Both the position numbers and the translations under genes were made by a program. This document shows positions 1,666 through 57,840 of a stretch of 64,000 nt of DNA, in pieces. The notes beneath the pieces were generated by a model. That model saw only the letters and a list, made by a program, of their open reading frames with translations, had not been told where the DNA came from and searched no databases. Every line of letters starts with the position of its first letter. Within the stretch, counting starts at the first letter, position 1. This DNA comes from Clostridiales bacterium (lineage in GTDB: Bacteria; Bacillota; Clostridia; Lachnospirales; Lachnospiraceae), in contig JAJQIK010000081.1 in the NCBI GenBank assembly GCA_021199255.1, positions 124,001 through 188,000 on the forward strand. The letters run 5' to 3'.

Positions 1666-3435
1666 TTATTTTCCATAAATAACCAGATCGTTTGTGACCG
1701 GCTGGCTGTTCGTATAAGGATTTCCGTCCTCGTCCCACAGTGTTTCGCAGAAAAAATGTACTTTGACCTCTTCTATGACGTCATCCGGAATGGTTTCGCC
1801 GTCCTTAATCCAATATTCCGTATCCCTGTATTCTTCGTTTGTTCCGGAATTAATGAAGAGAATATAGTGGTATTGTTCCGGGAAGTTCAGGCGGTTATAT
1901 AGATGCTCTGTCCGTGTTTGGATGTATTCGACCATATCGGAGACGGCTGACTCATAATCCGTATAATGAGGAGAATGATAACCGTCGTCCTGCCAGCGCT
2001 GCGCGTCCATGGCGATAGAAGAGGCAATCCGCTCTATATATTGGGGCAGGTAATCATTGAGATATTGTTGTATCAGCGGATAGGCGGTTTCATTATATTT
2101 CTCTGTTACGGCGTCCCGGAAGAAGGAGATAGAAAACAATTCCTCACAGTAGCCGGTGGGATAGGCGTTTAGCTCCGCTACCTGGCCGCGCGCCGTGCGT
2201 CCCCATGCGTTGTCATAGTCCCAGACCGGGCCGGCGTATAACAGGCTGTCCTCCGGATCATTTTTCTTATAATAATAGGTTGACGCGACATTAGAATCAA
2301 TATCGTTCGTGATGGCGTTGATGAGATACATATTTAGGAAGGATTCTGTGTCGATCCATTCCTGTAGCCGGGCGTATTGATCCTGGGAATCGCAGTCCTG
2401 AATCAGCGCTTCAACCGTATTCATATATTCGCTGAGAGATTGCAGTTCTGCTTCAGATACCGGATCGGAATTTTTGACCAGAAAATACCCCATATCTGTT
2501 ACCTGGAAGGGCTGGTCGTCCTCTTCGATCCGGGAGTGCAGGATCTTCTCAAGCAGATAGCCATTGGTAACGGCGACGCGGCTTTGATTCAGCTCCACCT
2601 TCTCGCACAGCAGATAATTTCCGGCGTATTCTCCGTTAAAATAGAGATCCACATATTCCGTGTCGGTGGTATAAGCAAGTCCTAAATCCTTACAGTAATC
2701 ATATACCAGCTTGTTGCGCAGATAAGTGTCGTCGAAGGCGTTGGCCTGTAGGATATATTTGTTTGCGGTTCCCATGAGAAGGACGTCGGTTGCGGTTTGA
2801 AAGGTAATCTGGTAGCTTTTTTTGTTTACTTCAATATAGCTGGAATTGCCGTGTGCCTTTATTTTGCTGAGAGAACCGCTGCTGTTCAGGCCGCCTTCCA
2901 CATTCAGGCAGGTAAAAGTGCCGGCTTCGCTTACTTCCTTGGAGGCGTTGATAGAGTCCATAGTTCCTGTGGCGGTAGTAATAAAGACAGAGGGCAGATT
3001 CTGGGATTGCATAAAGGTGATGGTCTGTGGCGTTGTACTGGTCAGAGCGGCTTCGTCAGAAACAGCGTTGACAGTCAGGGAATAGGCGGTATCAGTGTCG
3101 TATGGCTGGAGGGAAGCGGCGTTTTCCACAGGCGCGCCATCAATGGCAATCTGATAGCAGGATTCGTCGAATACCAGGACGGCTTCCGACAGAGACACGC
3201 AGGAGGGCAGAAAAAAGGTGCAGTCCCCGGACTGGCTGCAGTAGAGACGAAGCTCCGGCAGCGTAACAGAATCAGGAACCTTCAGCCAGATGTCCAGATA
3301 ACAGGCGGACTCCTGCGAAGTGATATCTGTATTGTTTACTGATGTACAGTGAGACAGAGGGATCAGCAGTCCGATTAGAAGAAGCAGTAATAATAAATGT
3401 ATGATATTCTTAAACGGTTTATTATGAATGTACAT
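1666..3435 (-). CDS. CotH-family kinase-like lipoprotein
   Basis: 589 residues. The N-terminus is a lipoprotein signal with a run of leucines and a lipobox ending LSHC (Cys30), so the protein should be anchored to the outer face of the membrane. The CotH domain (about residues 145-560) shows the glycine-rich ATP-site motif HGNSS at 195-199 followed by KK at 205-206, the acidic NDID at 377-380, and the metal-binding motif DYDNAWG at 406-412. CotH of Bacillus spores is an atypical kinase that phosphorylates coat proteins; secreted clostridial relatives are poorly studied. A short beta-rich region precedes the kinase domain. A GAGG ribosome site lies about 8 bases before the ATG. Two other CotH proteins occur in this window. 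The protein substrate is unknown. Confidence 0.88.
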   Translation of the reverse strand: MYIHNKPFKNIIHLLLLLLLIGLLIPLSHCTSVNNTDITSQESACYLDIWLKVPDSVTLPELRLYCSQSGDCTFFLPSCVSLSEAVLVFDESCYQIAIDGAPVENAASLQPYDTDTAYSLTVNAVSDEAALTSTTPQTITFMQSQNLPSVFITTATGTMDSINASKEVSEAGTFTCLNVEGGLNSSGSLSKIKAHGNSSYIEVNKKSYQITFQTATDVLLMGTANKYILQANAFDDTYLRNKLVYDYCKDLGLAYTTDTEYVDLYFNGEYAGNYLLCEKVELNQSRVAVTNGYLLEKILHSRIEEDDQPFQVTDMGYFLVKNSDPVSEAELQSLSEYMNTVEALIQDCDSQDQYARLQEWIDTESFLNMYLINAITNDIDSNVASTYYYKKNDPEDSLLYAGPVWDYDNAWGRTARGQVAELNAYPTGYCEELFSISFFRDAVTEKYNETAYPLIQQYLNDYLPQYIERIASSIAMDAQRWQDDGYHSPHYTDYESAVSDMVEYIQTRTEHLYNRLNFPEQYHYILFINSGTNEEYRDTEYWIKDGETIPDDVIEEVKVHFFCETLWDEDGNPYTNSQPVTNDLVIYGK

Positions 3436-29674: not shown

Positions 29675-31183
29675 ATGAAAAAAAGGGCGAAACTGGTTTG
29701 TTTGCCGGTATTTTTATTATTGTGTGTATATTTGATCATGAAATATGATAGCCGGGATGTACAGCTTGCGGTCTGCGGAGAGGGCGGCAGCCTGTGTATG
29801 ACGGTAATGGCCGGCGATATGGAGCAGAAATTATATCCATGGTATGACGAGGAGGAGGATCTCTATTATTTTTTCCTGCCGTCCTTTGTGAATGACAGTG
29901 AGATTTTCTTTGACCAGATATGGGAATCCGGAATCGAAATCAATGGTCAGGCTTATCGCTGGGGCGACAGCCTCGCGTGGAAAACAGGAGAAATTTATCA
30001 GCTTCAGGAAACAGGCTCTGACCAGTGCTTTCGGGTTTCCTTCCTGAAATCGGAGAATCTTCCGGCTTTTTTTGTCAGCACGGACAGCGGCAGCCTGGAA
30101 TATCTGCACAGTGACAAGGAAAATCAGGAGCAGGGTACGCTGACGGCTGTTACCGGGGATGGAACGGTAGAATATCATGGCGGTCTGGATAAGATTTCGG
30201 GGCGCGGCAACAGCACTTGGGATATGCCGAAGAAGCCTTATTCCATTACGCTTCCTGTGGCCTATTCTTTGGGCGGCCTGGAAGCAGGACAAAAGTGGTA
30301 TCTTCTGGCGTTATGGTATGAATCAGACCGTATCCATTCCAAGCTGGTGTACGATATGGCGCAGGAGCTGGGAATGGATTATGCCATTCAGTGTACCTGG
30401 GTTGATTTATATTGTAATGGGGAGTATCAGGGACTCTATCTGCTGACGGAGGCGGTTACGGTGGGCGACGGCAGAGTGGAAATACAGGAATTGGAAGAAG
30501 GCGATTCCGATATCAGCGGGGGATATCTGCTGGAAAAAGATCAGACGGACGGGACAGATGAGGGCACGCAGTACATCTACACAGATTACGCCACATTTAA
30601 AATCTGTTCCCCCAAGCAGGCGAACGAGGATCAGGTCAATTATATTGCGGGTTATATGCGATGGATTGAAAGTATGATCCTGTCGGGTGACGAGGCATAC
30701 CGGAATTATGTGGATCTGGACTCCTTTGCAGATCATTTGATTCTGGAAAATATCGCATTGGATGACGACGGTATGGTAAGAAGCACGTTTTTCTATAAAG
30801 ACCGGGGAGACGACAGGCTGTATCTGGGACCCGTATGGGATTATGACAGAGCCATGGGAGAGGGATATTCCGGACAGTATGAGTCGGAGGTATTCATGGT
30901 AGGTATGGAAGCCTGGTATCAGGCTTTGTATGCCGATGAGGAATTTTATGCCACCGTCCTGTCCGAATACCGGAAGCTGCGTCCCTATCTGCAAGAGATC
31001 GCGGATGGGCAGATAGAGGCTTATGCGGATCAGATCCGGGCGTCCGCGGCAATGGATTGTACCAGATGGAGCGCCGCCAGGGACTTTACCATACAGGATT
31101 ATGAAGAATCCGTAGGGCGTTTGAAAGCTTATCTGGCAGAGCGGATAGAATATCTGGATGGGTTGTGGGGCGAAGCGCCATAA
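29675..31183 (+). CDS. CotH-family kinase-like protein, membrane anchored
   Basis: 502 residues. The start ATG has GAGGAAGTGG directly upstream. An N-terminal helix (about residues 5-23) with no lipobox probably serves as a membrane anchor, leaving the rest outside. The CotH domain carries GRGNS (176-180) followed by KK (186-187), DDD at 363-365 and the metal-binding DYDRAMG at 389-395. The layout (small beta domain, then kinase) matches the CotH lipoprotein at 1666-3435, but the anchoring differs. It lies 11 bases after the YdjC gene and may be co-transcribed with it. A secreted protein substrate is inferred. Confidence 0.88.
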   Translation: MKKRAKLVCLPVFLLLCVYLIMKYDSRDVQLAVCGEGGSLCMTVMAGDMEQKLYPWYDEEEDLYYFFLPSFVNDSEIFFDQIWESGIEINGQAYRWGDSLAWKTGEIYQLQETGSDQCFRVSFLKSENLPAFFVSTDSGSLEYLHSDKENQEQGTLTAVTGDGTVEYHGGLDKISGRGNSTWDMPKKPYSITLPVAYSLGGLEAGQKWYLLALWYESDRIHSKLVYDMAQELGMDYAIQCTWVDLYCNGEYQGLYLLTEAVTVGDGRVEIQELEEGDSDISGGYLLEKDQTDGTDEGTQYIYTDYATFKICSPKQANEDQVNYIAGYMRWIESMILSGDEAYRNYVDLDSFADHLILENIALDDDGMVRSTFFYKDRGDDRLYLGPVWDYDRAMGEGYSGQYESEVFMVGMEAWYQALYADEEFYATVLSEYRKLRPYLQEIADGQIEAYADQIRASAAMDCTRWSAARDFTIQDYEESVGRLKAYLAERIEYLDGLWGEAP

Positions 31184-31195
31184 ACGCCGCCGTCG

Positions 31196-32152
31196 TTAAT
31201 ATCGTTCTAATTCCGTTACCTCGTCCCGCAGGATATCCATAAAATAAACGGCGCCGGCATCATTTAAGTGGTCGGAGTCTGAGAAGTAATCCAGATTGTC
31301 GCGGAAGCGGGCGTCATTGGAATAGTCATAATAACTGACACCTGTGTCAGTCGCGATTTTGGTTACAGTGGTATGAAATTCTTCTAAAAATTCATCGGAG
31401 ATCAGGTCACGATAGTATTTGGAAAAAGGCGTGGTAATCAGAACCGGTATAATCTCATGGCTCTGGCAATAGTCGATGATCGCATACAATTCTTCAATCC
31501 GCTCCGGCAGGAAATATTCTTCCTTGTTATCAAAATGCCTGCTGTAGCGTTCTTTTGCCCTTTCGGCAAACTCAGCCTCATCGATGCCGTCGTCCGCAGC
31601 CTGAACCGTTAAGGTCAGCTTCAGGCTCGGGAACAGCTCCAGAATGTCCTCGCCGGCGGAGAGAATGGGCATTTTATGGGTTACCAGATCAATATAAGGA
31701 TCATAATCGGGGATATATTCCGACGGCAGGAAATGATAATAGCGGATGCTCATAGCCTCCCGTTCGCTGTCATTTATGACTTCATTGTTAAAAGAGAAGT
31801 AGGATACTGGAATGAACATCACGCTGTCCTCTACCATATATTGTCCATATGCCTGCAAAATCGCGTAGTCATAATCGTAGGATTGGCTGGTGTTGGCGAA
31901 ATTAAAGCAGATATAGCCCTTTTCCCGAATCGCGTCATAGTTGAAATCGTAGGCTCCGTGGGAGCTTCCCAGATTACCCACGTGGATTTCCCAGTATTCT
32001 CTTCCCAGCATATCAAATTTAACGACGTCCGCGTACTTTTGTTCGTCTATTTTCAGATAAGGCTTGTTCAGGCAGTAGAGCAGCAGCAGCGCCGCCGCCG
32101 GAATCAGCATACATTTCAGGATAAAACGAATTACGTCTCTTTTCTTTTTCAT
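31196..32152 (-). CDS. SGNH-like membrane-anchored acyltransferase partner (DltD/AlgX-like)
   Basis: 318 residues with one N-terminal membrane helix (about 10-27). The SGNH fold is marked by VGNLGSSHGAYDF, with Ser64 at the nucleophile position, and by the C-terminal Asp292-x-x-His295 pair (DSDHLND). These proteins are extracytoplasmic and assist MBOAT enzymes: DltD works with DltB, and AlgX/AlgJ with AlgI. It lies 30 bases downstream of an MBOAT gene on the same strand, so the two form a module. The acyl group and acceptor are unknown. Confidence 0.82.
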   Translation of the reverse strand: MKKKRDVIRFILKCMLIPAAALLLLYCLNKPYLKIDEQKYADVVKFDMLGREYWEIHVGNLGSSHGAYDFNYDAIREKGYICFNFANTSQSYDYDYAILQAYGQYMVEDSVMFIPVSYFSFNNEVINDSEREAMSIRYYHFLPSEYIPDYDPYIDLVTHKMPILSAGEDILELFPSLKLTLTVQAADDGIDEAEFAERAKERYSRHFDNKEEYFLPERIEELYAIIDYCQSHEIIPVLITTPFSKYYRDLISDEFLEEFHTTVTKIATDTGVSYYDYSNDARFRDNLDYFSDSDHLNDAGAVYFMDILRDEVTELERY

Positions 32153-32182: not shown

Positions 32183-33646
32183 TTAGAACTGCATATAAAT
32201 AAATTCCGTGGACACGCCCTTAGGGGCGAACAGGGCTATCAGGACAAGCAGCAGGACATATACCGGCCAGCGGATGAAAAATTTTTGCCTGGAAAAAGCC
32301 GCGATCACATCGCATTTTAAAGCCGCATAATCGTAGATGCCCAGCAACAGGACAGATAAAGTCATGCCAATGGCGGCAGCCGGGGACAAGCCCAGACAGA
32401 CCACCGCAGTCTGCAAATAGCTGAGCGGGCGGGAAGCGTCCCAGAAAAGACGGGAGATTACCCACACCGCGTCCGCCATGGTATTAGCCCGGAAGAAGAT
32501 CCAGGTAAACCATAGAAGCGTAAAGGTAAGAGGAAGCTGCCACCAGTGCCTGCGCCCCCAGAAACGTTTCAGGCGGCTTTGGGGGTTCGAATCCCTGGAG
32601 CGGGGATAAAGAAAGGTTTCCAGAATTTGCAGCAGCCCGTGCAGGCCACCCCAAAGAAGGTAGGTCAGGCTGCTGCCGTGCCAGAAGCCGCTGATCAGGA
32701 AGGTAATCATCAGATTCAGGCAATGCCGCCATCTTTTTACCCGGTTGCCGCCCAGAGGAATATAGACGTAGTCACGAAACCAGGAGGACAGGGAAATATG
32801 CCATCTGCTCCAAAATTCCTTAATGGAGAAGGAAAAATAGGGGCTTTTAAAATTAGTCATAAGATCGATTCCGAACAGCTTGGCACAGCCCACCGCAATG
32901 TCAGAGTAGCCTGAAAAGTCGCAGTAAATCTCGATGGCAAACATGATCGTGGCAATGATAAAAGCAAGCCCCACATAGCTATGGACATTGTCATATAATT
33001 GGTCTACCGTCTGGGCGAAGACATCGGCGATCACCAGTTTCTTAAAATAGCCCCATGCCATCAGCTTTAAACCATAGGTTACTTTGTCATATTCAAAAGG
33101 ACGCTCCTTCTTATATTGGGGCAGCAGAGAGTCGGCTCTGCCGATAGGCCCGGCCAGGAGCTGGGGGAAGAAAGACACAAACAGCGCGTAGTAGCCGAAG
33201 TGCTTTTCTGCAGGGATTTTGCCCCGATAGACGTCGATCAGATACCCCATGGACTGAAAGAAATAGAAGGAGACGCCTGCCGGAAGAAGGATCTGCAGGG
33301 TAATAGGCTGCATGGCAAGACGGCCGACGCCGATCAGGCTGTTGAACTGATTAATCACGGGGCTTCCTAATTTATAGAACAGCAGAATCAGAATCAGAGG
33401 CACAAGCCCGCCCAGAAGGCAACGCCGTTTCTGCTTTACAGAAGCCGCCTTTTCCACCTTCAGCGCCAGCACATAGGTCAGCAGGGTAGCCGCCAGCAGA
33501 AGGATACCGTATCCGATATGCAGATTCATATAGAATAAATAGCTGGCAAGCAGCAGGAATCCCCACCTGTATTTATGGGGCATCAGGTAATACAGAATAA
33601 ATACAATGATGATAAATATGCCAAACGATAAAGAATTAAACAGCAT
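32183..33646 (-). CDS. MBOAT-family O-acyltransferase (AlgI/DltB-like)
   Basis: 487 residues from the ATG at 33646, which has AGGGAG 8 bases upstream; a longer in-frame start lacks a ribosome site. MLFNSLSFGIFIIIVFILYY is the typical MBOAT N-terminus. Motifs in order are SFFPQLLAGPIGRAD, FCDFSGYSDIAVG (here YCDFSGYSDIA), FWSRWHISLSSWFRDYVYIP and GFWHGSSLTYLLWGGLHG, with the two conserved His. It moves an acyl group across the membrane onto a surface glycan. The SGNH partner follows directly. A second MBOAT gene is transcribed divergently from the same 204-base gap. Confidence 0.95.
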   Translation of the reverse strand: MLFNSLSFGIFIIIVFILYYLMPHKYRWGFLLLASYLFYMNLHIGYGILLLAATLLTYVLALKVEKAASVKQKRRCLLGGLVPLILILLFYKLGSPVINQFNSLIGVGRLAMQPITLQILLPAGVSFYFFQSMGYLIDVYRGKIPAEKHFGYYALFVSFFPQLLAGPIGRADSLLPQYKKERPFEYDKVTYGLKLMAWGYFKKLVIADVFAQTVDQLYDNVHSYVGLAFIIATIMFAIEIYCDFSGYSDIAVGCAKLFGIDLMTNFKSPYFSFSIKEFWSRWHISLSSWFRDYVYIPLGGNRVKRWRHCLNLMITFLISGFWHGSSLTYLLWGGLHGLLQILETFLYPRSRDSNPQSRLKRFWGRRHWWQLPLTFTLLWFTWIFFRANTMADAVWVISRLFWDASRPLSYLQTAVVCLGLSPAAAIGMTLSVLLLGIYDYAALKCDVIAAFSRQKFFIRWPVYVLLLVLIALFAPKGVSTEFIYMQF

Positions 33647-33691
33647 GACGGTTCTCCCTGTAAATCTCGTATATACAATAAATCCCACATC

Positions 33692-33850: not shown

Positions 33851-35386
33851 ATGGGAATTACCTCATTTTATTTTTTGTGTTTTTTTGCGGCTATGTTAAT
33901 TGTGTATTACAGTATCCCCAAGAAGCTCCAGTGGGGATTTCTTCTGGTATGCAGCGTGGCGTATTATCTGATGTCCGGCAATGGGCTGCTGATTCTTTAT
34001 CCGATTGTATCGGTGAGCGTCTGTTATCTGGGGATACGGCTTCTTGGGAAGCTGTCCTCAGAGAAGGAAAAGGAGCGAAAAGGGGTTCTTATTATGACCA
34101 TATTGGTCAATATAGGGATTCTGGTGGTGCTGAAATATGTGAACTTCGGTATCTATACGGTCAATGGAATTGCCAGCCTGCTTGGCGGTTCCGGCACGCT
34201 GCTGGAAGAAGTGGATTTTCTGGCGCCTTTGGGGGCGTCCTTTTATACCTTTTCCTTATTGGGCTATGTGGTGGATGTTTATTACGGCATTGCTGCGCCC
34301 CAGCAGAATTATGGGAAGCTGGCGCTGTATGGAATGTATTTTCCGGTGATGATATCCGGGCCGATTTTAAAGTACCGGGAGCATGGAGAGCAGTTCTTTG
34401 CCCCCCATTTCTTTGATTATCGGCAGGTGACCCGCGGGCTGCAGCGTATGGTCTGGGGCTTTTTTAAGAAGCTGGTGATTGCCGAGAGGCTGGGAACGCT
34501 GGTGAGTACGGTTTATGGACAGTATCCGGATTATCCGGGAGCCTATATCTGGATTGCTACCATATGCTATGCGTTTCAGCTCTACACGGATTTTTCCGGC
34601 TGCATGGACATTGTACTGGGAATGTCGGAGAGCCTGGGTATTATACTGCCGGAGAATTTCCGCACGCCCTTTTTTGCGGAAAGCGTTGCAGAGTATTGGA
34701 GAAGGTGGCATATTACACTGGGCGTGTGGATGAAGGACTATGTGTTTTATCCGGTGCTGCGCTCCCGGTTTTTCACTAAGCTGAATCGTTCCTGGAAGGA
34801 GAGATTTGGCAAGAAGAGGGGGAAGCAGTATGCGACCTTTGCGGCAATGTTTATTTTATGGCTGACGGTGGGTATCTGGCATGGCGGCGATTGGAAATTT
34901 GTGATCGGTTCCGGCTTGCTGCATTGGTTTTATCTTGTGATGGAGGAGCTTCTGGCTCCCCCCTGCGCCCGACTGATGAGCTGTCTCCATGTGAATGGAA
35001 AAGGAAGAGTTATTCATGTGGTTCGCGTGCTCAGAACCTTTTTCCTGGTATGCGTCGGAGACCTGTTTTTCCGGGCGTCGTCGGTGGGAGATGCCTTTGC
35101 CATGCTCAGGGAGGCGGTGACAACATGGAATGTATCGGTATTGTGGGACGGTTCTCTCCTGCAGCTGGGGCTGGACGGGGTGGAAATGGCCATTACCGCG
35201 GTATCGCTGCTGCTGCTGTATGGGGTATCGCTAAGGCAGCAGAAGGGTTCCGTGCGGGACGCGATAGCGGCAAAGCCTTTGCCGGTTCGCTGGATTCTTT
35301 GGTATGCCCTGTTGTTCTATGTGATTTTGCTGGGCTGCTACGGGCCGGGCTACAGCGCTTCGGAATTTATCTATCAGGGATTTTAA
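33851..35386 (+). CDS. MBOAT-family O-acyltransferase
   Basis: 511 residues; GAGGAA lies about 12 bases before the ATG. MBOAT motifs in order: FPVMISGPILKYREH, LYTDFSGCMDIVLGMS, EYWRRWHITLGVWMKDYVFY and VGIWHGGDWKFVIGSGLLHW, with the catalytic His retained. It differs clearly from the other two MBOATs of the window, so a different acceptor or acyl donor is likely. No SGNH gene adjoins it; a DPM1-like GT2 gene follows instead. It may borrow one of the unpaired SGNH proteins encoded elsewhere in the window. Confidence 0.93.
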   Translation: MGITSFYFLCFFAAMLIVYYSIPKKLQWGFLLVCSVAYYLMSGNGLLILYPIVSVSVCYLGIRLLGKLSSEKEKERKGVLIMTILVNIGILVVLKYVNFGIYTVNGIASLLGGSGTLLEEVDFLAPLGASFYTFSLLGYVVDVYYGIAAPQQNYGKLALYGMYFPVMISGPILKYREHGEQFFAPHFFDYRQVTRGLQRMVWGFFKKLVIAERLGTLVSTVYGQYPDYPGAYIWIATICYAFQLYTDFSGCMDIVLGMSESLGIILPENFRTPFFAESVAEYWRRWHITLGVWMKDYVFYPVLRSRFFTKLNRSWKERFGKKRGKQYATFAAMFILWLTVGIWHGGDWKFVIGSGLLHWFYLVMEELLAPPCARLMSCLHVNGKGRVIHVVRVLRTFFLVCVGDLFFRASSVGDAFAMLREAVTTWNVSVLWDGSLLQLGLDGVEMAITAVSLLLLYGVSLRQQKGSVRDAIAAKPLPVRWILWYALLFYVILLGCYGPGYSASEFIYQGF

Positions 35387-40429: not shown

Positions 40430-41533
40430 TTGGAACAGAGAGAAAATCGTAATAGAAAAAGAGGAAAATATCAGAATAATATCCTGTTGCTGACGGTACT
40501 GATCGGATTCTGTATTCTGGCGCTGATTGAGATTGCGTACGGACATGCGCAGATGAAGGTGGAGAAAGAGCGTCTGGCCTTAGAGGAGTCCAACAGTCAA
40601 ACTGTGCAGGAATTAAAGCAGGAATGGGATCAGATCAAGGACGGCTCCAGCGTGGTAACGGACGAGGAAGGGCAGACAGTCAGCAGCGGGGAAAACACGG
40701 AGACCGAATCGGCCGAGGTGGTGGAAAAGGAGCAGGAGGACGAGGCGGACGCGGATTTGCCGGACGAAGAGGGAGACTATGATATGCAGATCGTCATTAT
40801 GGGCGACAGCATCATGGATAATGACAGGACGGAGAGCGGCGTGGCGGCTATTATTGGCGAGGAGTGCAATGCCAAGGTCTATAATATGGCGATGGGCGGC
40901 ACCACGGCGGCGCTGATGCCCACGGAGCAGTATAATTACGGTACATGGGATTCCCGATGCCTCCTGGGAGTGGTGAATGCCATTCTTGGCAATATCAATA
41001 CGGATATTTTTGACGGCTATACGGCAGGCAAGATTCTGGAAGAGTGCGACTTTGAAGAGACCGATTATTTTATTATCGAATATGGGGTAAATGATTTCTT
41101 GACGGGACAGATTCCCCAGAGCCGTTATCTGGAGGACGGCGATACGCTGGCCGTGGATGCGGTGCATACTTATACGGGTGCTCTGGAGAATGCGGTCGTA
41201 CTGCTGCAGGACAGCTTCCCGGACGCCAAGATTTTACTGATCGCCCCTCATTATTGCCAGATTTTTAACGGCACAACCTTTGTGGGAGACGGTTATTCGG
41301 TAGATTATGGCTGGGGCACTCTGGTCAGCTTTGCCAGAGGAACGGGGTATATCTACGAGCAGCATAAAGAGGAAAACGTTATTTTCTTCAACGCCTTTGA
41401 AGACAGCGGAATCAATGCAGAGACAGCGGATAAATACCTGGAGGACGGTATCCATTTGACGGCGGAGGGAAGCAGGGTATATGCGGATTATGCCGCCAGG
41501 GTTATTAATGCGGATTTCAGGCCGGAGGAATAG
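40430..41533 (+). CDS. Membrane-anchored SGNH/GDSL hydrolase
   Basis: 367 residues from a TTG start; the ribosome region AAAGGCGGTGATG precedes it and no in-frame ATG lies before the membrane helix. One N-terminal helix (about residues 17-38) is followed by an acidic linker and an outer SGNH domain. The catalytic blocks are complete: MGDS with Ser127, YGVND (block III) and DGIHL with Asp339 and His342. It should be an esterase or acyltransferase acting on surface glycans. The FkbH-like gene follows by 16 bases, tying it to acyl-group metabolism. A degenerate paralogue is at 56649-57674. Confidence 0.88.
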   Translation: MEQRENRNRKRGKYQNNILLLTVLIGFCILALIEIAYGHAQMKVEKERLALEESNSQTVQELKQEWDQIKDGSSVVTDEEGQTVSSGENTETESAEVVEKEQEDEADADLPDEEGDYDMQIVIMGDSIMDNDRTESGVAAIIGEECNAKVYNMAMGGTTAALMPTEQYNYGTWDSRCLLGVVNAILGNINTDIFDGYTAGKILEECDFEETDYFIIEYGVNDFLTGQIPQSRYLEDGDTLAVDAVHTYTGALENAVVLLQDSFPDAKILLIAPHYCQIFNGTTFVGDGYSVDYGWGTLVSFARGTGYIYEQHKEENVIFFNAFEDSGINAETADKYLEDGIHLTAEGSRVYADYAARVINADFRPEE

Positions 41534-41549
41534 GACAGGTAAGAAACAT

Positions 41550-43397
41550 ATGAGGGAATTAGAGTATCCTTTTGACAGCGAATATATTTTAAAGAAATCC
41601 AGAAAGCTCAGGCGGCAGCTTCTGGAGGAGGGAAGCGGTTTCCTCCCCAGGAAAATCGCGGTGTTAGGCGGAAGCACTACCCATGATATTATCAGGGTGC
41701 TGGAGCTGTTTCTCCTGGATCAGGGCATACAGCCGGAGTTTTATGAGTCGGAGTATGACCAGTACTGGCAGGACGTGATGTTTGACAATCCCGCGCTGAC
41801 AGCCTTTGCGCCGGATCTGGTTTATATCCATACCTCCGGCCGCAATATCTCTGTTTTTCCCAGCCCCACAGACAGCGAAGCGCAGGTAGAGGATATGCTT
41901 GCCCGCCAGTACGGGCATTTTCAGGTGATGTGGGATAAGCTGGCGGACAAGTATCATTGCCCGGTGATTCAGAATAACTTTGAGTATCCTTTTTACAGAA
42001 TATTGGGGAACAGGGACGCTTTCGACATTCATGGCAGAATCTGCTTTATTAACAGGCTTAACGAATTGTTCTACGGATATGCGAGGGAGCATCAGAATTT
42101 CTATATCAATGACATGAATTATATGGCCTCCGCCTATGGGCTGGATCGATGGGCGGATCCGTTGTATTGGCATATGTACAAGTATGCCATGTGCATGCAG
42201 GCGATTCCTGAGTTTGCATTTAATCTGGCCAATATCATCAAGGCAATTTTCGGTAAGAACAAGAAGGCTCTGGTCTTAGATCTGGATAACACTCTCTGGG
42301 GCGGTATTGTGGGCGACGACGGCGTGGAGAATCTGGAGATCGGCCAGGAAACTTCCATGGGGCAGGTTTATTCGGAATTTCAGAATTATATTAAGGCACA
42401 GAAGGATATCGGCGTTCTGCTCAATGTGAATTCCAAGAATGAATATGACAATGCTATTGCGGGTTTAAATCATCCGGACGGCAGCCTGCAGCCTGATGAT
42501 TTTATCGTTATTAAGGCGAATTGGGAGCCCAAGAGCAAGAATATGGCGGATATCGCCGACGAATTGAATATTATGCCGGACAGTCTGGTATTTGTAGATG
42601 ATAATCCGGCGGAACGGGAGATCATCAGAAACCAGGGGGGCGGCGCCGTTGCGCCGGAGATCGGTACGCCGGAGCAGTATATCAGGGTGTTGGATCATTC
42701 GGGCTTTTTTGAGGTGATCGGCTTGTCTGAAGATGACAGGAAGCGCAACGAGATGTATAAGGCGAATTTGCAGCGCAGACAGCAGCAGGACAATTTCGGG
42801 GATTACAGGGAATATCTGCTGTCCCTTGAAATGCGGGGGACGATCCGGGCGTTTGAGCCGCTTTATATGGCGCGCATCGCGCAGCTTTCAAATAAGAGCA
42901 ATCAGTTCAATCTGACTACCAGAAGATATACCCAGAGCGATATTGAGCGGTTCGCCGCGGACGAGGCTTATATTACCCGGTATGGCAAGCTGGAGGATAA
43001 GTTCGGCGATAATGGGGTAGTCTCTGTGGTAATCGGCAGAAAGGGGCGGGCGTTTGATACGGCCCTCTATCAGAAGGCAGGCGCGCTGACAGGCGCTATG
43101 CCCTCTGAACCGTGTGATGTGCTGCACCTGGAGCTGTGGCTGATGAGCTGCCGGGTATTAAAGCGCGATATGGAATACGCTATGATGGACAGTATGGTGC
43201 GCGCCTGCCAGGATTGCGGTATCGCCGTGATGATGGGTTATTATTATCCCACCGCCAAAAACGCAATGGTCAGGGATTTCTATGGGCAGCAGGGCTTTAC
43301 GAAGGTTGCTGAAGATGAAGCGGGCAACAGCGTCTGGCAGTTTATGATTCCTGAGGATTATCAGCCTAAAAACACGGTGATTGCCGTAAATGACTAA
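41550..43397 (+). CDS. FkbH-like HAD-IIIC protein with GNAT-like C-terminal domain
   Basis: 615 residues from ATG 41550 (AGGTAAG 7 bases upstream); an earlier in-frame ATG overlaps the previous gene. An N-terminal SGNH-like region (about 1-230) precedes the HAD-IIIC domain, with LVLDLDNTLWGG (Asp244, Asp246), NVNSKNEYDNA and FVDDNPAERE. The C-terminal third is GNAT-like, with LSNKSNQFNLTTRRYT and DFYGQQGF. Known FkbH proteins take the glyceryl group from 1,3-bisphosphoglycerate, dephosphorylate it and load it onto a carrier protein. Those enzymes often have Cys just before SKN; here the residue is Asn, so chemistry may differ. The ACP gene follows. It probably supplies an acyl group for surface O-acylation (inference). 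Confidence 0.9.
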   Translation: MRELEYPFDSEYILKKSRKLRRQLLEEGSGFLPRKIAVLGGSTTHDIIRVLELFLLDQGIQPEFYESEYDQYWQDVMFDNPALTAFAPDLVYIHTSGRNISVFPSPTDSEAQVEDMLARQYGHFQVMWDKLADKYHCPVIQNNFEYPFYRILGNRDAFDIHGRICFINRLNELFYGYAREHQNFYINDMNYMASAYGLDRWADPLYWHMYKYAMCMQAIPEFAFNLANIIKAIFGKNKKALVLDLDNTLWGGIVGDDGVENLEIGQETSMGQVYSEFQNYIKAQKDIGVLLNVNSKNEYDNAIAGLNHPDGSLQPDDFIVIKANWEPKSKNMADIADELNIMPDSLVFVDDNPAEREIIRNQGGGAVAPEIGTPEQYIRVLDHSGFFEVIGLSEDDRKRNEMYKANLQRRQQQDNFGDYREYLLSLEMRGTIRAFEPLYMARIAQLSNKSNQFNLTTRRYTQSDIERFAADEAYITRYGKLEDKFGDNGVVSVVIGRKGRAFDTALYQKAGALTGAMPSEPCDVLHLELWLMSCRVLKRDMEYAMMDSMVRACQDCGIAVMMGYYYPTAKNAMVRDFYGQQGFTKVAEDEAGNSVWQFMIPEDYQPKNTVIAVND

Positions 43398-43413
43398 ACT
43401 TTGGGCTGAAAGG

Positions 43414-43442
43414 TTGCGAAAAAATAGAAAAAACGTTATAGT
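43414..43442 (+). promoter_or_regulatory. Promoter of the acyl carrier protein gene
   Basis: TTGCGA, 17 bases, TATAGT, beginning 17 bases after the FkbH-like stop codon. It would let the ACP gene be transcribed independently of the upstream genes. Confidence 0.55.
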
Positions 43443-43548
43443 GTTTATATTGGCTGTCTGCGGAAGCCCTATTGGGAAAGAAGCGGCGGCGTAGGAAGCC
43501 TTGGGGACAAGGAAGTCCGAATGGCGGAAAGGTACGGGTAATGATACA

Positions 43549-43791
43549 ATGACAAGGGACGAAGTATTTCAGAGATTAAACGGAGTGTTTCAGGACGTAT
43601 TTGACGATGAGAGTATTACGGTAACGGAAACGACTACCGCAGATGATATTGAAGAATGGGATTCCTTAGAGCATATTAACCTGCTGGCTGCGGTGGAGCA
43701 GGAGTTTGGCATGAAGTTCAACATGGGACAGGTGGTATCCATGAAAAATGTGGGGGAGATGGCGGATATTATCATGAGTCAGGCCGGTTGA
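43549..43791 (+). CDS. Acyl carrier protein (phosphopantetheine-binding)
   Basis: 80 residues from ATG 43549, the usual ACP length. EEWDSLEHINLL contains the DSL attachment site, with Ser39 as the phosphopantetheine residue. The domain is highly acidic, and the DSLEHI variant is common in dedicated, non-fatty-acid carriers such as DltC-like proteins. It sits right after the FkbH-like gene, with its own promoter and a terminator behind it. It probably carries the acyl group loaded by that enzyme and presents it to an MBOAT, as DltC does for D-alanine (inference). Confidence 0.93.
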   Translation: MTRDEVFQRLNGVFQDVFDDESITVTETTTADDIEEWDSLEHINLLAAVEQEFGMKFNMGQVVSMKNVGEMADIIMSQAG

Positions 43792-45413: not shown

Positions 45414-45809
45414 TTACCTGAGCAGCTCGATGATACCGATCACGGCGCTGTTTAAGAACACCACCTCTCGTCCGCCCAGGGCAGGAGCGGGAGTGGGGCT
45501 GTCAATGGCAATAAAGCCGTTAGCGGTCAGCCAGGCATAGTCCGCGTCAAAATCGGAGGCTTCATAACAGATATGATAGGGACAGTTTTTGTACTTTTTC
45601 ATCAGGCCAGCCACCACGGAATCCTCGGAAGCCGGGGAGACTAATTCTACGCGGTACCCGTCTTTGACGAGAAAGCAGATCGTTACCTTGCGGATATCGT
45701 CGTAGACGGCGTCCTGTTCGATTCTGTAGCCAAGCGCGAGAAAGGCCTGGACGGCTTTGTCTATTTTTTTGACTAAATAACCAATGTGGTGTATTGTTAA
45801 TGTCGGCAT
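45414..45809 (-). CDS. VOC-family (glyoxalase/methylmalonyl-CoA-epimerase-like) protein
   Basis: 131 residues from ATG 45809, which has AGGAGG 9 bases upstream. The vicinal-oxygen-chelate fold is shown by the paired repeats: TIHHIGYLVKKIDKAVQAF at the start (His as metal ligand), VELVSPA, and PYHICYEASDFDAD at the second half (His ligand). It is soluble and cytoplasmic. VOC proteins of this type epimerise or rearrange small acyl thioesters or act on oxo-acids. Its place near the FkbH-like protein and ACP suggests a role on the same acyl group, but this is context only. Confidence 0.85.
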   Translation of the reverse strand: MPTLTIHHIGYLVKKIDKAVQAFLALGYRIEQDAVYDDIRKVTICFLVKDGYRVELVSPASEDSVVAGLMKKYKNCPYHICYEASDFDADYAWLTANGFIAIDSPTPAPALGGREVVFLNSAVIGIIELLR

Positions 45810-45911
45810 GATTGTTTTCCTCCTGTTTTGTTCCAAGTCCTTATTGCCATCATAACGCAAAACAGGGAAAAATGATAGATACAGATGGAAAAAGCATCAA
45901 AAAGGAAGCTT

Positions 45912-54044: not shown

Positions 54045-55559
54045 ATGTTGTTTAATTCCTATATTTTTGTTTTGTTTTTTTTGCCTATATGTTTGTTAGG
54101 GTATTACGGCCTGCTGCATAAGCGGAAGGAGAAAGCGGCCAGACTTTTTCTGACAGCTATGTCGTTTTGGTTTTACGGCTATTTTAATAGTTTTTATCTG
54201 CTGATCATGGCGGGAAGTATTCTGGCGAATTATTTCTTTCACAGGATGTTGTCCCGGAACCCGCAAAAGCGGCTGATGCTGCTGGCGGTGGCGTGTAATC
54301 TGGGCGTTTTGTTTTACTTCAAATATTTTGATTTTTTTCTTTCCACCATGAATAGTGTGTTTCGCGTATCCATGCCGCTGCGGGGCGTTTTACTGCCCCT
54401 GGGAATCAGCTTTTTTACCTTTCAGCAGATTTCCTTTGTGGTGGATACCTATCACGGTGAAATCAAAAACTGCGGTTTGGTAGAGTACGCGCTGTTTGTA
54501 TCTTTTTTTCCTCAGTTGATTGCGGGTCCTATCGTGAACCACAGCGAAATGCTGCCCCAGTTTGACGCCATAGGTCGCCGGCCTGTTGTGTGGGAACGGA
54601 TTGGGGAAGGAATGGGGCTTTTTATTCTGGGTCTTGCCAAGAAGGTGTTGATAGCGGATACCTTTGGGGCGGGAGTGGATTATGGATACGCCGATTTGGC
54701 TCAGTTGGGGCGTTTTGACGCCTGGCTGGTTATTTTCTTTTACGCCTTGCAGCTATATTTTGATTTCAGCGGTTATTGCGACATGGCAAGGGGGATCGGC
54801 AAGATGTTGGGGATTGAGATTCCGGTGAATTTCAATTCGCCTTACAAAGCCACCAATATCATTGATTTTTGGAAGAGATGGCACATTACCCTGAATCGGT
54901 TTTTCCGCAAATATGTATACATACCTCTCGGCGGCAACCGCCGGGGAGCGGCGCGGACGTACGTGAATCTGATGCTTGTATTTCTGTTAAGCGGCTTATG
55001 GCACGGCGCGGGATGGAATTATATTCTCTGGGGGGCGTTGCACGGGGGATTGTATGTGCTGACCAGATTCTGGAAGAGGCGTTTGGCAGAGCGGGAGCCT
55101 TGTACCGGGGACAGGAGCCGGGAGGAACAGCCGGGGCGTGAAAAGCGAAGAAGTATCATTATGACACTTGTGTCACGTATTGCGCTTTTCCTTTATGTAA
55201 GCGTGGCATGGGTCTATTTCCGGGCGGAAAGCATCGGGCAGGCCAATCAAATGCTGCTTACGGCACTGAAAGGGTCGGTGAAAAAGGTGTCGTTGGAGCT
55301 GGCGGAATGTTTCCGCTTAGATGAGTTCTGGTATGTGCTGAAGGTGTTACATCTGGATCAGATGACATACAGCGGATATTTTCTGATGGGAGCCATTTTG
55401 GCGGCGGGGATTTATCTTGCCATGGTCGGCGATAACGCGGCGCAGAGAATGGAGCGGCTCAGGTACAGGCCTGCATCGGCGCTGGTTTTGGCGGGACTTA
55501 TGATATGGTGTGTGCTGACTTTTTCTCAGGTCAGTACCTTTCTGTATTTTAATTTTTAG
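54045..55559 (+). CDS. MBOAT-family O-acyltransferase
   Basis: 504 residues starting MLFNSYIFVLFFLPI, a typical MBOAT N-terminus; GGAG lies about 13 bases upstream. Motifs in order: SFFPQLIAGPIVNHSEM, LYFDFSGYCDMARGIG, FWKRWHITLNRFFRKYVYIP, and SGLWHGAGWNYILWGALHGG with both conserved His. It is closer to the MBOAT at 32183-33646 than to the one at 33851-35386. An SGNH-like partner gene begins 24 bases downstream, repeating the MBOAT-SGNH arrangement seen at 31-33 kb. Confidence 0.95.
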   Translation: MLFNSYIFVLFFLPICLLGYYGLLHKRKEKAARLFLTAMSFWFYGYFNSFYLLIMAGSILANYFFHRMLSRNPQKRLMLLAVACNLGVLFYFKYFDFFLSTMNSVFRVSMPLRGVLLPLGISFFTFQQISFVVDTYHGEIKNCGLVEYALFVSFFPQLIAGPIVNHSEMLPQFDAIGRRPVVWERIGEGMGLFILGLAKKVLIADTFGAGVDYGYADLAQLGRFDAWLVIFFYALQLYFDFSGYCDMARGIGKMLGIEIPVNFNSPYKATNIIDFWKRWHITLNRFFRKYVYIPLGGNRRGAARTYVNLMLVFLLSGLWHGAGWNYILWGALHGGLYVLTRFWKRRLAEREPCTGDRSREEQPGREKRRSIIMTLVSRIALFLYVSVAWVYFRAESIGQANQMLLTALKGSVKKVSLELAECFRLDEFWYVLKVLHLDQMTYSGYFLMGAILAAGIYLAMVGDNAAQRMERLRYRPASALVLAGLMIWCVLTFSQVSTFLYFNF

Positions 55560-55583: not shown

Positions 55584-56639
55584 TTGAACAAATATAAAAA
55601 ATGGCTGCTTGCCACAATACTTATTATTATCATCGGCCTGATAGCGGAGGCTGCCGTGGTCGTCTACGTGGACCCTTTTTTTCAATACCACGCGCCTCTT
55701 GAGAAGTTCCCTTATCTGGTGGACAATCAACTGAGCCAGAATCCGGGTATGGCGAAAAATATGGAGTATGACAGCGTGATCCTGGGCTCTTCCATGACCG
55801 TGAATTTTAACACCAACTGGTTTGAGGAACTGCTGGGGCTTGATGCCATTAAGCTGAATTACAGCGGGGCATATCCTAAAGACCAGGCGAATATTATGGA
55901 GCGGATCTTCTCCAGCGGCCATCAGGTGAAGGCGGTGTTTTTAGGGGTGGATGTGATGACGTATACCGGCGGCGTGGAGGAGACGAAGTACCCCATACCT
56001 GAATATCTATATGATGATTCCATCTGGAATGACGCGGAGTATTTGTGGAATAAGGATGTGTTTTTGAATTATATCCTGCGCCCTATGGCCGATCCTGACA
56101 AGACTGATTTGGCGACGGTATACCAGAGCTGGTGGACAGATGAATATTATAATATACAGTGGGTTATGCATAATTATGTGCAGCCGGAGCAGGTAGAAGA
56201 AGAAACGCCCGCGGATGCTTATCTGGAAAGCGTGGGGGAGAATCTGGACATTAATATCTGCCCCTATATCGAGCAGAATCAGGACACTGTTTTTTATATC
56301 TTCTTTCCGCCCTACAGTATCCTGTACTGGAATGATGTGATGCAGGAAAACCACTTAGAGGCGACGATGGCGGAGTACCAGTACATTGCGGACAGGCTGC
56401 TTGCCTATGACAACGTGCGGGTCTTCTATTTCCCCAATCAGGAGTGGATCGTAACGGATCTGAATAATTATGCCGATTACAGCCACTATCACAAAGACAT
56501 CAATTACTATATGACGCAGTGCTTCGCGGACGGGAGCTGTGAAGTGGCCACCTCCGGGGAGATGGCGCAGGCTCTTGATCAGATGCGGGAGGTGATTGCC
56601 GGTTTTGATTTTGAGGAACTGTTTTCAGTGGAATACTAG
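55584..56639 (+). CDS. SGNH-like membrane-anchored acylation partner (DltD/AlgX-like)
   Basis: 351 residues from a TTG start; GGAAAGG lies about 13 bases upstream. One N-terminal helix (about 7-28) anchors it, followed by VDPFFQYHAP. The nucleophile block is SVILGSSMTVNF with Ser70 and the C-terminal Asp/His block is NYADYSHYHKDINYYM. The GSSM and D-x-x-H pattern resembles proteins that work beside MBOATs. It is paired with the upstream MBOAT and ends 9 bases from a convergent gene. Confidence 0.82.
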   Translation: MNKYKKWLLATILIIIIGLIAEAAVVVYVDPFFQYHAPLEKFPYLVDNQLSQNPGMAKNMEYDSVILGSSMTVNFNTNWFEELLGLDAIKLNYSGAYPKDQANIMERIFSSGHQVKAVFLGVDVMTYTGGVEETKYPIPEYLYDDSIWNDAEYLWNKDVFLNYILRPMADPDKTDLATVYQSWWTDEYYNIQWVMHNYVQPEQVEEETPADAYLESVGENLDINICPYIEQNQDTVFYIFFPPYSILYWNDVMQENHLEATMAEYQYIADRLLAYDNVRVFYFPNQEWIVTDLNNYADYSHYHKDINYYMTQCFADGSCEVATSGEMAQALDQMREVIAGFDFEELFSVEY

Positions 56640-56648
56640 CCGGAATCC

Positions 56649-57674
56649 CTATTCTTCCGCATCTTCTGAAACCAGATCCGGGAAAATACACTGCACGAAC
56701 CGGTCTGCCAGCAATTCCCTTCCGGCGTCATTAAAGTGGATATAATCTGTCATATAGTCCAGATAGTTATCCTCATTGATGGAGCCGTAAAAGTGATCGA
56801 TAAAGGATACGCTGCAGTCGCTGGTTGCATCCAGTTCCTTCTGCAGGTAATGGCTCAGGGTTCCGTTGCCTAAATCAACCCGGTCGCCGTTTTCGAAGTT
56901 ACCTTCTTCATTGATGGTATGGCAGAAGGTGTGGGACATCACAACGATACGGATATGCGGATAAGCGTCCTGAATCGCCCGGATACCGGCTCTGAGGGCG
57001 CCTGTATAGGTGACGATGGATTCCGGCGCGTTGGGGTCGTCGCAGGCTCTTTTATTGATATAATCGCTTCCGTCATACATGATACAGAGGACATCCACCG
57101 AGTTCATGTCCAGGCTCTCCAGCATTGCCGTGGTCTGGGGAAACGCCTCGTCATAGCTGTAGGTGGCGGCGGTCTTCATCAGATCGAAATCGCCGGAGGC
57201 GAGGCTCTGGGCTACATAGGAGAATGAGAACGCGTCCAGAATATAGCCGTCATTGTAAGATTCATACTGGGCGGCTATGGTAGTTCCGGTAAAGGAGCCG
57301 TTATAAACGGTGGCCCCGGTCTTGGCGGCAATCTGTTCGGCCAGTCCGCCTTCGCCCTGGTTCAGTGAAAAGGGGTCGTCGCCCAGGCACAGGATAGTTG
57401 TGACGCCGTCGTCCTCATGGCCTTCGAGCTTGTCCGGCGCAAGAGGGATAATGTTGTCCATCGCCTCAACATCGAAGTCGGTAGTCTGGTAGTCGGGGTC
57501 ATAATCCGACGGTATGCCCTTGTTCCATTTATATAGCTTATAAGCGGAAAATCCCGCGATCAGTACAATAGCGCATAAAAGAAGGATGTGGATATTCAGG
57601 CGGAAGCCCTTCTCTTCCCTGCTGTTTTCCGGATTTTCATTTTCCCTGATATTTGTGTTTTGATCTGGTTTCAT
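56649..57674 (-). CDS. Degenerate SGNH-fold membrane-anchored protein (likely pseudoenzyme)
   Basis: 341 residues from ATG 57674 (AAAGGA about 9 bases upstream). One N-terminal helix (about 27-46) leaves the rest outside. It is clearly a paralogue of the SGNH hydrolase at 40430-41533: VYNGSFTGTT against VYNMAMGGTT, and VTYTGAL against HTYTGAL. The nucleophile block reads LCLGDDPFS, with Asp100 where the other has Ser127, and block III reads MYDGSDY instead of EYGVNDF, losing the Asn. The Asp/His block DYIHFND is kept. Loss of two catalytic positions suggests a binding or scaffold role rather than hydrolysis; Ser103 might substitute. Confidence 0.82.
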   Translation of the reverse strand: MKPDQNTNIRENENPENSREEKGFRLNIHILLLCAIVLIAGFSAYKLYKWNKGIPSDYDPDYQTTDFDVEAMDNIIPLAPDKLEGHEDDGVTTILCLGDDPFSLNQGEGGLAEQIAAKTGATVYNGSFTGTTIAAQYESYNDGYILDAFSFSYVAQSLASGDFDLMKTAATYSYDEAFPQTTAMLESLDMNSVDVLCIMYDGSDYINKRACDDPNAPESIVTYTGALRAGIRAIQDAYPHIRIVVMSHTFCHTINEEGNFENGDRVDLGNGTLSHYLQKELDATSDCSVSFIDHFYGSINEDNYLDYMTDYIHFNDAGRELLADRFVQCIFPDLVSEDAEE

Positions 57675-57840
57675 GATTGATTTCCTTTCGCCCTTTCTTC
57701 CGTTGAGGCAATTATCTATTTCTTCCATTGCGAAATAACGGGTTTCTTTTCAGTATGATTATTCTACTATGAAATTTTATAAAAATCCATGGCTTACCGA
57801 TATTTTAAGAAATTATTTTGTTTTACGGTTCAGCTTATGG

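Follow-up and report, generated by a model that had tools for sequence, protein, structure and literature searches.

A candidate Dlt-like surface acylation system with an FkbH-type activator and its own acyl carrier protein in a polysaccharide locus of Lachnospiraceae

An SGNH protein, an FkbH protein and a carrier protein are encoded side by side

The window analyzed here is a stretch of 64,000 nucleotides (G000:C60:124001-188000) from a Lachnospiraceae genome of 3.08 Mb in 93 contigs, which is 99.28% complete. An earlier note, made from the sequence alone, had described a Dlt-like acylation block in this window, in which genes for an SGNH hydrolase, an FkbH-like protein and an acyl carrier protein (ACP) are adjacent. 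Matches to Pfam and NCBIfam models confirmed that these are three adjacent real genes, all encoded on the plus strand at positions 40430-43791 (Table 1). The three MBOAT genes named in the note were found as well and are called MBOAT_A, MBOAT_B (the middle one) and MBOAT_C here. Two DltD/AlgX-like SGNH partners had been counted; both are present, and the SGNH protein of the three-gene block is likely a third one. The surrounding genes encode UDP-glucose dehydrogenase, an epimerase, glycosyl transferases, DUF6020, DUF6044 and CotH proteins and mark a surface polysaccharide region.

The window FkbH protein belongs to the FkbH family, matching TIGR01686 with 252 bits (cut-off 146.65) and FkbH_N with 39.4 bits (cut-off 27). 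Residues D244, D246 and C534 are invariant across 23 aligned family members, and we take C534, the conserved C-terminal cysteine, to be the acyl holder. The only solved relative found by sequence is BF1531 (PDB 3slr). Among the matches listed, the closest named relatives come from Lachnospiraceae, where the organism names of metagenome-assembled genomes may be wrong. The genome encodes two FkbH proteins, both on contig C60, and the second copy is 62% identical to the first. In the second locus, genes for a relative of the DUF6020 protein, an MBOAT, an SGNH-like protein, FkbH, ACP and MaoC follow each other in a row, with an SDR gene further on.

The ACP was recognized by the PP-binding model with 22.5 bits (cut-off 20.8). 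The W and the S of its WDSxxH motif are kept in all 101 aligned family members (101/101), the S being the attachment serine. With the model for the ACP of fatty acid synthesis (TIGR00517) the window ACP scores only 23.2 bits, below the cut-off of 70.45, whereas the two housekeeping ACPs of the same genome pass this model with 96.5 and 89.1 bits; the window ACP therefore looks like a dedicated carrier. Its best PDB relative is 2lml. NCBIfam assigned it to general ACP models only and not to a DltC-type carrier.

The SGNH protein of the block matches Lipase_GDSL_2 with 40.6 bits (cut-off 32.9) and contains the GDS and DxxH motifs as GDSI at residue 125 and DGIH at residue 339; a hydrophobic N-terminal stretch was seen by eye. 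It is thus a GDSL protein, and the DltD-like protein encoded beside MBOAT_A reaches 23.8 of the 150 bits required by LTA_DltD. A further relative of the block's SGNH protein is encoded on the minus strand; it has GDD for GDS and seems to be without the nucleophilic serine. MBOAT_B is a member of the MBOAT superfamily (PF03062, 63.6 bits, cut-off 27), one of eight MBOAT matches in the genome. No variation was seen at residues H287 and H344 among 23 relatives; these two are presumably the conserved histidines of MBOAT proteins.

Table 1. Positions of the features discussed, counted from the first letter of the window
Feature	Position	Strand	Remarks
SGNH/GDSL protein, membrane-anchored	40430-41533	+	Pfam Lipase_GDSL_2; proposed final transferase
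FkbH-type HAD-IIIC/acyltransferase protein	41550-43397	+	likely ATG at 41550, from the DNA; TIGR01686, FkbH_N; proposed glyceryl-ACP loader
Dedicated ACP	43549-43791	+	likely ATG at 43549; PP-binding
MBOAT_A	32183-33688	-	beside the DltD-like gene
MBOAT_B (middle MBOAT)	33851-35386	+	PF03062; proposed membrane transferase of the system
MBOAT_C	54045-55559	+	beside the AlgX-like gene
DltD-like protein	31196-32152	-	adjoins MBOAT_A
AlgX-like protein	55584-56639	+	named by eye; without Pfam match
VOC-fold protein, methylmalonyl-CoA epimerase/glyoxalase I-like	45414-45812	-	Glyoxalase_4; possible stereochemical editor of the ACP-bound group
CotH-kinase-like protein	1666-3435	-	by eye
CotH-kinase-like protein	29675-31183	+	Pfam
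SGNH relative of the 40430-41533 protein	56649-57728	-	GDD instead of GDS

The FkbH-ACP pair is linked to MBOAT genes in related genomes

FkbH was detected at an E value of 1e-30 or better in 41 of 200 genomes of the family. We compared 121 loci, consisting of the window, 40 regions (39 matches in 38 other genomes and the second copy of the own genome) and the best 80 of at least 593 candidates; regions from the FkbH genomes G087 and G097 were not included. A simple gene caller was used for the neighbourhoods. The set comprises 103 close loci (at least 45% identity) and 18 distant ones, and near kin were retained in it (for example L147, L152, L156, L157 and L169). Of the 121 called FkbH proteins, 119 have the HAD motif and 120 have the SCR motif.

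An ACP gene is found on the same strand within 5 kb of FkbH in 99 of the 121 loci and anywhere in the locus in 107. MBOAT genes on the same strand start within 5 kb of the FkbH start in 70 loci and within 9 kb in 82, and MBOAT genes on the opposite strand lie within 5 kb in two loci. Among the other genes encoding more than 150 amino acids within 5 kb, 449 of 568 are located on the FkbH strand. An SGNH-type gene lies within 9 kb of FkbH in 60/121 loci, and both an SGNH-type gene and a same-strand MBOAT were found in 55/121. Of the 67 close loci that are flanked by at least 5 kb in both directions, 52 contain a same-strand MBOAT within 9 kb. The family of the block's own SGNH protein is encoded on the FkbH strand in 14 of the 103 close loci, these 14 being of the window type, and in two of the 18 distant ones.

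Several sets recur: FkbH-ACP-MBOAT-DltD-like (for example in L137 from Butyrivibrio sp. XPD2002), MBOAT-DHHW-FkbH-ACP, FkbH-ACP-MBOAT-ThrH-like HAD and FkbH-transketolase-MaoC-ACP-SDR-MBOAT. The neighbouring genes at one or both ends of some sets lie on the opposite strand, which marks these sets as units. The compact order FkbH-ACP-MBOAT followed by the HAD gene was observed in L141, L142, L147, L151, L152, L156, L157 and L169; Pfam identifies the last protein as HAD, and ThrH-like is the name we presume for it. In genome G190, contig 34 carries FkbH, for which no neighbouring ACP was found, and contig 7 encodes an FkbH-type ACP, an MBOAT and a DltD-like protein; the components thus stay in one genome although they are separated on the map.

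As a control, the polysaccharide gene for RmlB (dTDP-glucose dehydratase) was located in the 41 FkbH genomes, which yielded 40 regions, G165 having none. An MBOAT was counted when it lay on the same strand with a gap of up to 5 kb. By this rule, and with a single MBOAT model built mainly on MBOATs of FkbH loci, an MBOAT is present near FkbH in 20/41 loci (13/23 close and 7/18 distant ones) and near RmlB in 1/40 (Fisher p = 1.2e-6); the FkbH loci come from 39 genomes and the RmlB loci from 40, mostly the same ones. When only loci with about full flanks were considered, the numbers were 19/38 and 1/33. Chance proximity within polysaccharide loci was rejected on the basis of this control. The window itself, with its gap of about 6.2 kb, falls outside the rule. 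Conservation in relatives, on which the earlier note had made its proposal depend, was thus found, and MBOAT linkage is far above that of RmlB.

A fresh sample of 398 genomes of the phylum contained five genomes with a strong FkbH match, one of them being the own genome. The gene order is MBOAT, a small gene, FkbH and ACP in G341, and MBOAT-DHHW-FkbH-ACP in G535. The G406 region is cut by the contig end next to transketolase genes, and in the distant G565 the order is MaoC-SDR-FkbH-ACP, with no MBOAT found.

A different arrangement was observed in L054, L101, L102, L107 and L119. Here FkbH (with ACP in four of the five loci) directly precedes housekeeping genes, by eye phosphofructokinase-, DnaX-, YbaB- and RecR-like, and no MBOAT is present in the stretch examined.

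MBOAT_B groups with the MBOATs of FkbH loci

A tree of 147 MBOATs was calculated with FastTree after proteins shorter than 380 amino acids, one long-branch row and two duplicates had been removed. A clade of 77 rows (support 100) holds 56 of the 95 MBOATs of FkbH loci, including MBOAT_B and the MBOAT of the second copy in the own genome. It also holds all 11 rows adjacent to DltA-like genes, which entered the tree because of their high MBOAT_B-model score and are thus partly placed by choice, seven further top matches and three rows located at a distance in FkbH genomes. None of the 31 background rows, which as best PF03062 scorers lean to canonical forms, falls into the clade. Inside it, a group of 54 rows (support 87) is almost entirely made up of FkbH-locus MBOATs and a group of 18 rows (support 94) mostly of DltA-associated ones. 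MBOAT_A and MBOAT_C are located outside the clade.

FkbH-ACP is immediately followed by a near relative of MBOAT_B in L052, L053, L099 and L106, and in L098 one follows at a short distance. At a score of 590 bits or more, the MBOAT_B model found 13 proteins, distributed over 12 of the 200 family genomes; all 12 contain FkbH, seven of them having supplied rows for the model and five not. A search of the PDB with the MBOAT_B profile at an E value of 0.01 returned only DltB chains. Matches to the DltB model were obtained with all three MBOATs of the window, and DltB as the sole solved relative was therefore not used to choose MBOAT_B. The earlier note had made no choice among the three MBOATs; judged by tree and gene order, MBOAT_B is the likely partner of FkbH-ACP in the window. 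A second lineage of 11 MBOATs (support 100) occurs in the MBOAT-DHHW-FkbH-ACP cassettes, suggesting that the pairing with FkbH-ACP arose more than once.

Loci with DltA-like genes share the MBOAT and DltD-like proteins

The best match to the DltA model TIGR01734 in the own genome is a frame of 928 amino acids with 22.3 bits, far below the cut-off of 559.85, and no match was obtained at an E value of 1e-30. As the DltA and DltB scores remain below their thresholds and the ACP was not assigned to a DltC model, the identity of the locus as a dlt operon was rejected.

We examined 15 regions with DltA-like genes or top-match MBOATs (L230-L244). A DltC-like ACP was found in 14/15, using a model seeded from four of these loci, and a DltD-like protein of the family present in the FkbH cassettes likewise in 14/15. 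The ACP of the DltA-like loci is DltC-like and differs from the FkbH-type ACP. Since the DltA rows of the clade had been chosen by MBOAT_B score, the telling point is that among the next-best matches of the MBOAT_B model (about 512-583 bits, 200 genomes) 28 of 43 have a listed DltA-like gene within 5 kb. The shared MBOAT clade and DltD-like family, combined with a different ACP, indicate a common MBOAT and DltD chassis on which, as far as gene content tells, activator and ACP change together. Inspection of the 41 genomes by eye revealed no FkbH match within 10 kb of a listed DltA-like match, the nearest being 10.8 kb away. The Dlt-like logic of activator, carrier, MBOAT and SGNH protein put forward in the earlier note is supported both by the conserved linkage and by the MBOAT clade and DltD-like family held in common with the DltA-like cassettes.

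Sets of DltA-like protein, DltC-like ACP, MBOAT and DltD-like protein recur in the family (L230-L243), and their substrate may be other than D-alanine. The DltA cut-off is passed in 6/200 genomes; DltA-like proteins at an E value of 1e-70 occur in 103/200, frames of peptide-synthetase size included.

A VOC protein and further enzymes accompany FkbH

The VOC protein encoded downstream of the ACP matches Glyoxalase_4 with 68.1 bits (cut-off 27). Its only NCBIfam match, metmalonyl_epim (TIGR03081), reaches 50.1 bits and stays below the cut-off of 114.95, so that it was not assigned as a methylmalonyl-CoA epimerase. The nearest solved proteins are 3hdp (glyoxalase-I, 108.6 bits) and 2qh0, followed by methylmalonyl-CoA epimerases. 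Two histidines and two glutamates are invariant in the family, which we take to be the metal positions. The VOC family occurs within 5 kb of FkbH in 30/121 loci, 16 times on the same and 14 times on the opposite strand; in 14 of the same-strand cases the VOC gene begins 1.6-2.3 kb downstream of the FkbH start, in most of them directly behind the ACP gene. It was found in one of the four fresh FkbH regions and in none of the 40 RmlB regions or the 15 DltA-type regions. A VOC protein acting at the alpha carbon of a thioester would fit editing of glyceryl-ACP.

Other enzymes encoded in FkbH loci are MaoC (23/121), SDR (15/121) and a split transketolase (10/121). The two-gene transketolase was seen in the FkbH loci L103, L111, L117, L118, L132, L143, L144, L158 and L252, often together with MaoC and SDR, and loci of this type may make a larger or different acyl-ACP.

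Farther from the block, two CotH-kinase-like proteins are placed inside the polysaccharide locus, on opposite strands (Table 1).

Proposed function and alternative explanations

From the gene families, their intact motifs, the conserved linkage, the MBOAT clade and a genome without a DltA match over the cut-off, we infer a pathway whose chemistry, acyl group, export and acceptor would be as follows. FkbH and its own ACP would replace the DltA/DltC pair. FkbH would take 1,3-bisphosphoglycerate, its HAD domain would remove the phosphate, and the glyceryl group would be held on the cysteine before its transfer to the ACP phosphopantetheine. A VOC protein may then invert the thioester at its alpha carbon or edit it otherwise, in some lineages and perhaps in the window as well. 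MBOAT_B would accept the group from the ACP and carry it across the membrane, where either the SGNH protein of the block or MBOAT_B itself would attach it in ester linkage to a hydroxyl group of the glycan that the locus produces for the cell surface. Passages in two papers hold that FkbH and an ACP give glyceryl-ACP in polyketide pathways (PMC7489565, PMC3679948), and the acid loaded here is probably glyceric acid taken from glycolysis. In these Clostridia, FkbH-ACP is often coupled to MBOAT and SGNH-type genes, and by the precedent of Dlt the group would therefore be exported. We give a probability of roughly 0.58 to the reading that the window encodes a Dlt-like surface acylation system in which glyceryl-ACP made by FkbH supplies an MBOAT for export and an SGNH protein attaches the group to a surface glycan.

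Several observations weigh against this reading. The three-gene block covers the activator, the carrier and one SGNH protein, and the membrane transferase is located outside it: the nearest MBOAT is about 6.2 kb away from FkbH, with an inverted gene in between. MBOAT_B scores 139.1 bits with the DltB model TIGR04091, which is under the cut-off of 375 and below the other two window MBOATs. MBOATs of FkbH loci are found outside the MBOAT_B clade in 39 of 95 cases, and 11 of the 22 close-FkbH genomes of the family sample contain an MBOAT match of at least 590 bits. A same-strand MBOAT within 9 kb is missing from 28 of the 103 close loci, some of whose contigs end early, and in the fresh sample an MBOAT lies by FkbH in two of the four genomes other than our own, one further region being cut by the contig end. 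In addition, the SGNH partner of the window type differs from the DltD-like family of the DltA-like loci. Further points of this kind bear on the alternatives discussed below.

The same machinery could export something other than glyceryl, such as lactyl, a group derived from pyruvate or a different small hydroxyacyl group; additional enzymes working on the ACP could produce it, or a glyoxalase-like reaction at the ACP thiol. The MaoC, SDR and transketolase genes of other cassettes, the MaoC and SDR genes at the second copy in the own genome and the glyoxalase/epimerase-like VOC protein, which the window shares, argue for this possibility, and the group need not be glyceryl everywhere. We nevertheless consider it unlikely for the window, as genes for MaoC, SDR and transketolase were not observed next to the window FkbH or in many other FkbH-ACP-MBOAT loci, and FkbH and ACP alone are held to be sufficient for glyceryl-ACP in the polyketide work cited above. 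Quite unlikely in our judgement is a second alternative, that FkbH-ACP acylates a cytoplasmic nucleotide sugar or lipid-linked sugar and the MBOATs act independently as O-acetyltransferases on the same polysaccharide. FkbH-ACP pairs without MBOAT do occur in NeuB/NeuA loci (L068, L085-L088, L164 and L168), so FkbH-ACP also serves other acceptors, and in these nonulosonic acid loci it seems to serve the cytoplasm; the same may apply to cj1302 of Campylobacter jejuni. In this species, cj1302 is described in a passage on the flagellar glycan locus as a gene with an FkbH domain (PMC7099621), and another passage, which names no gene for it, reports flagellin with a di-O-methylglyceric acid form of pseudaminic acid (PMC3958885). 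On the other side stand an MBOAT linkage far exceeding that of RmlB, small sets consisting of FkbH, ACP, MBOAT and an SGNH-type gene, and an MBOAT clade that splits by activator. The window fits the case of MBOAT-coupled export, with MBOAT_B and the SGNH protein of the block as the likely pair.

This pair is called into question by an explanation in which FkbH-ACP feeds MBOAT_C with its AlgX-like neighbour, or MBOAT_A, instead of or besides MBOAT_B. Proteins like MBOAT_C and the AlgX-like protein adjoin FkbH in L066, L104 and L131, which speaks against MBOAT_B as the sole partner; the L104 MBOAT forms a three-row group with MBOAT_C (support 99), the MBOATs of the MBOAT-DHHW-FkbH-ACP cassettes belong to the same half of the tree, and MBOAT_A is kept in many loci of the window type. 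MBOAT_A and MBOAT_C are, however, located outside the 77-row clade and each is encoded beside another SGNH-type gene; MBOAT_C is more than 10 kb away from FkbH, and near relatives place MBOAT_B directly after FkbH-ACP. Such a role for either protein therefore appears very unlikely: MBOAT_A was rejected as the partner by its tree position and its pairing with the other SGNH-type gene, and MBOAT_C is made less likely by the same kind of comparison.

Extended beyond the window, the glyceryl export reading describes a separate and widespread class of surface acylation in Clostridia, in which 1,3-bisphosphoglycerate would be turned directly into an exported ester via FkbH and ACP on a chassis of the MBOAT/DltD type, which DltA-like enzymes drive in other species, with the VOC protein fixing stereochemistry and MaoC, SDR, transketolase and ThrH-type HAD proteins giving related hydroxyacyl decorations. 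We put this forward tentatively, at slightly less than even odds. If the proposal is true, MBOATs would export hydroxyacyl esters such as glyceryl to the surface in addition to D-alanine and acetyl, and ACP-dependent export would be modular, activator and carrier being swappable on one MBOAT/DltD chassis. An envelope decoration would be linked directly to a high-energy intermediate of glycolysis without an adenylation step. The role of many FkbH-ACP pairs of gut and rumen bacteria outside polyketide pathways would be explained, and base-labile glycerate esters, easily lost in routine glycan analysis, are predicted.

Comparison with known systems

Searches of open-licence papers for FkbH together with MBOAT, DltB, glycan, flagellin or polysaccharide returned no title or abstract with a description of an FkbH-ACP-MBOAT cassette. 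Parts of it resemble known systems. FkbH lies by a stand-alone ACP and passes the TIGR01686 cut-off, as in the FkbH/ACP glyceryl loading of polyketide pathways (tetronates, methoxymalonyl-ACP); unlike there, neither a polyketide synthase nor a FabH-like gene was observed next to the window FkbH, and its partners are an MBOAT and an SGNH protein of a polysaccharide locus. To our knowledge, systems of the AlgI/AlgX type have no dedicated activator and carrier. An MBOAT, an SGNH partner and an exported polysaccharide are common to the window, AlgI/AlgX alginate acetylation and other MBOAT-SGNH pairs, whereas activator and carrier recur next to the MBOAT in FkbH cassettes. That MBOAT-SGNH pairs act on exported polysaccharides is stated in a passage of a review (PMC9558356). 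An FkbH protein in a glycan locus is also known from C. jejuni, where it is encoded by cj1302. There, a nonulosonic acid produced in the cytoplasm is the presumed acceptor. An MBOAT does not appear in the passage describing cj1302 (PMC7099621).

The closest comparison is dltABCD. Here as there, an activator, a small carrier, an MBOAT and an SGNH-type partner form one set; the MBOAT_B profile finds only DltB in the PDB, and FkbH loci have their MBOAT clade and their DltD-like proteins in common with DltA-like loci from the same bacterial family. In contrast to dltABCD, the window system has an FkbH activator, an ACP of the WDSxxH type, an SGNH protein of the GDSL type and an added VOC protein, the genome is without DltA, and MBOAT_B remains under the DltB cut-off. 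Taken together, the proposed system works like Dlt, yet by the tests made it is not a member of the dlt family.

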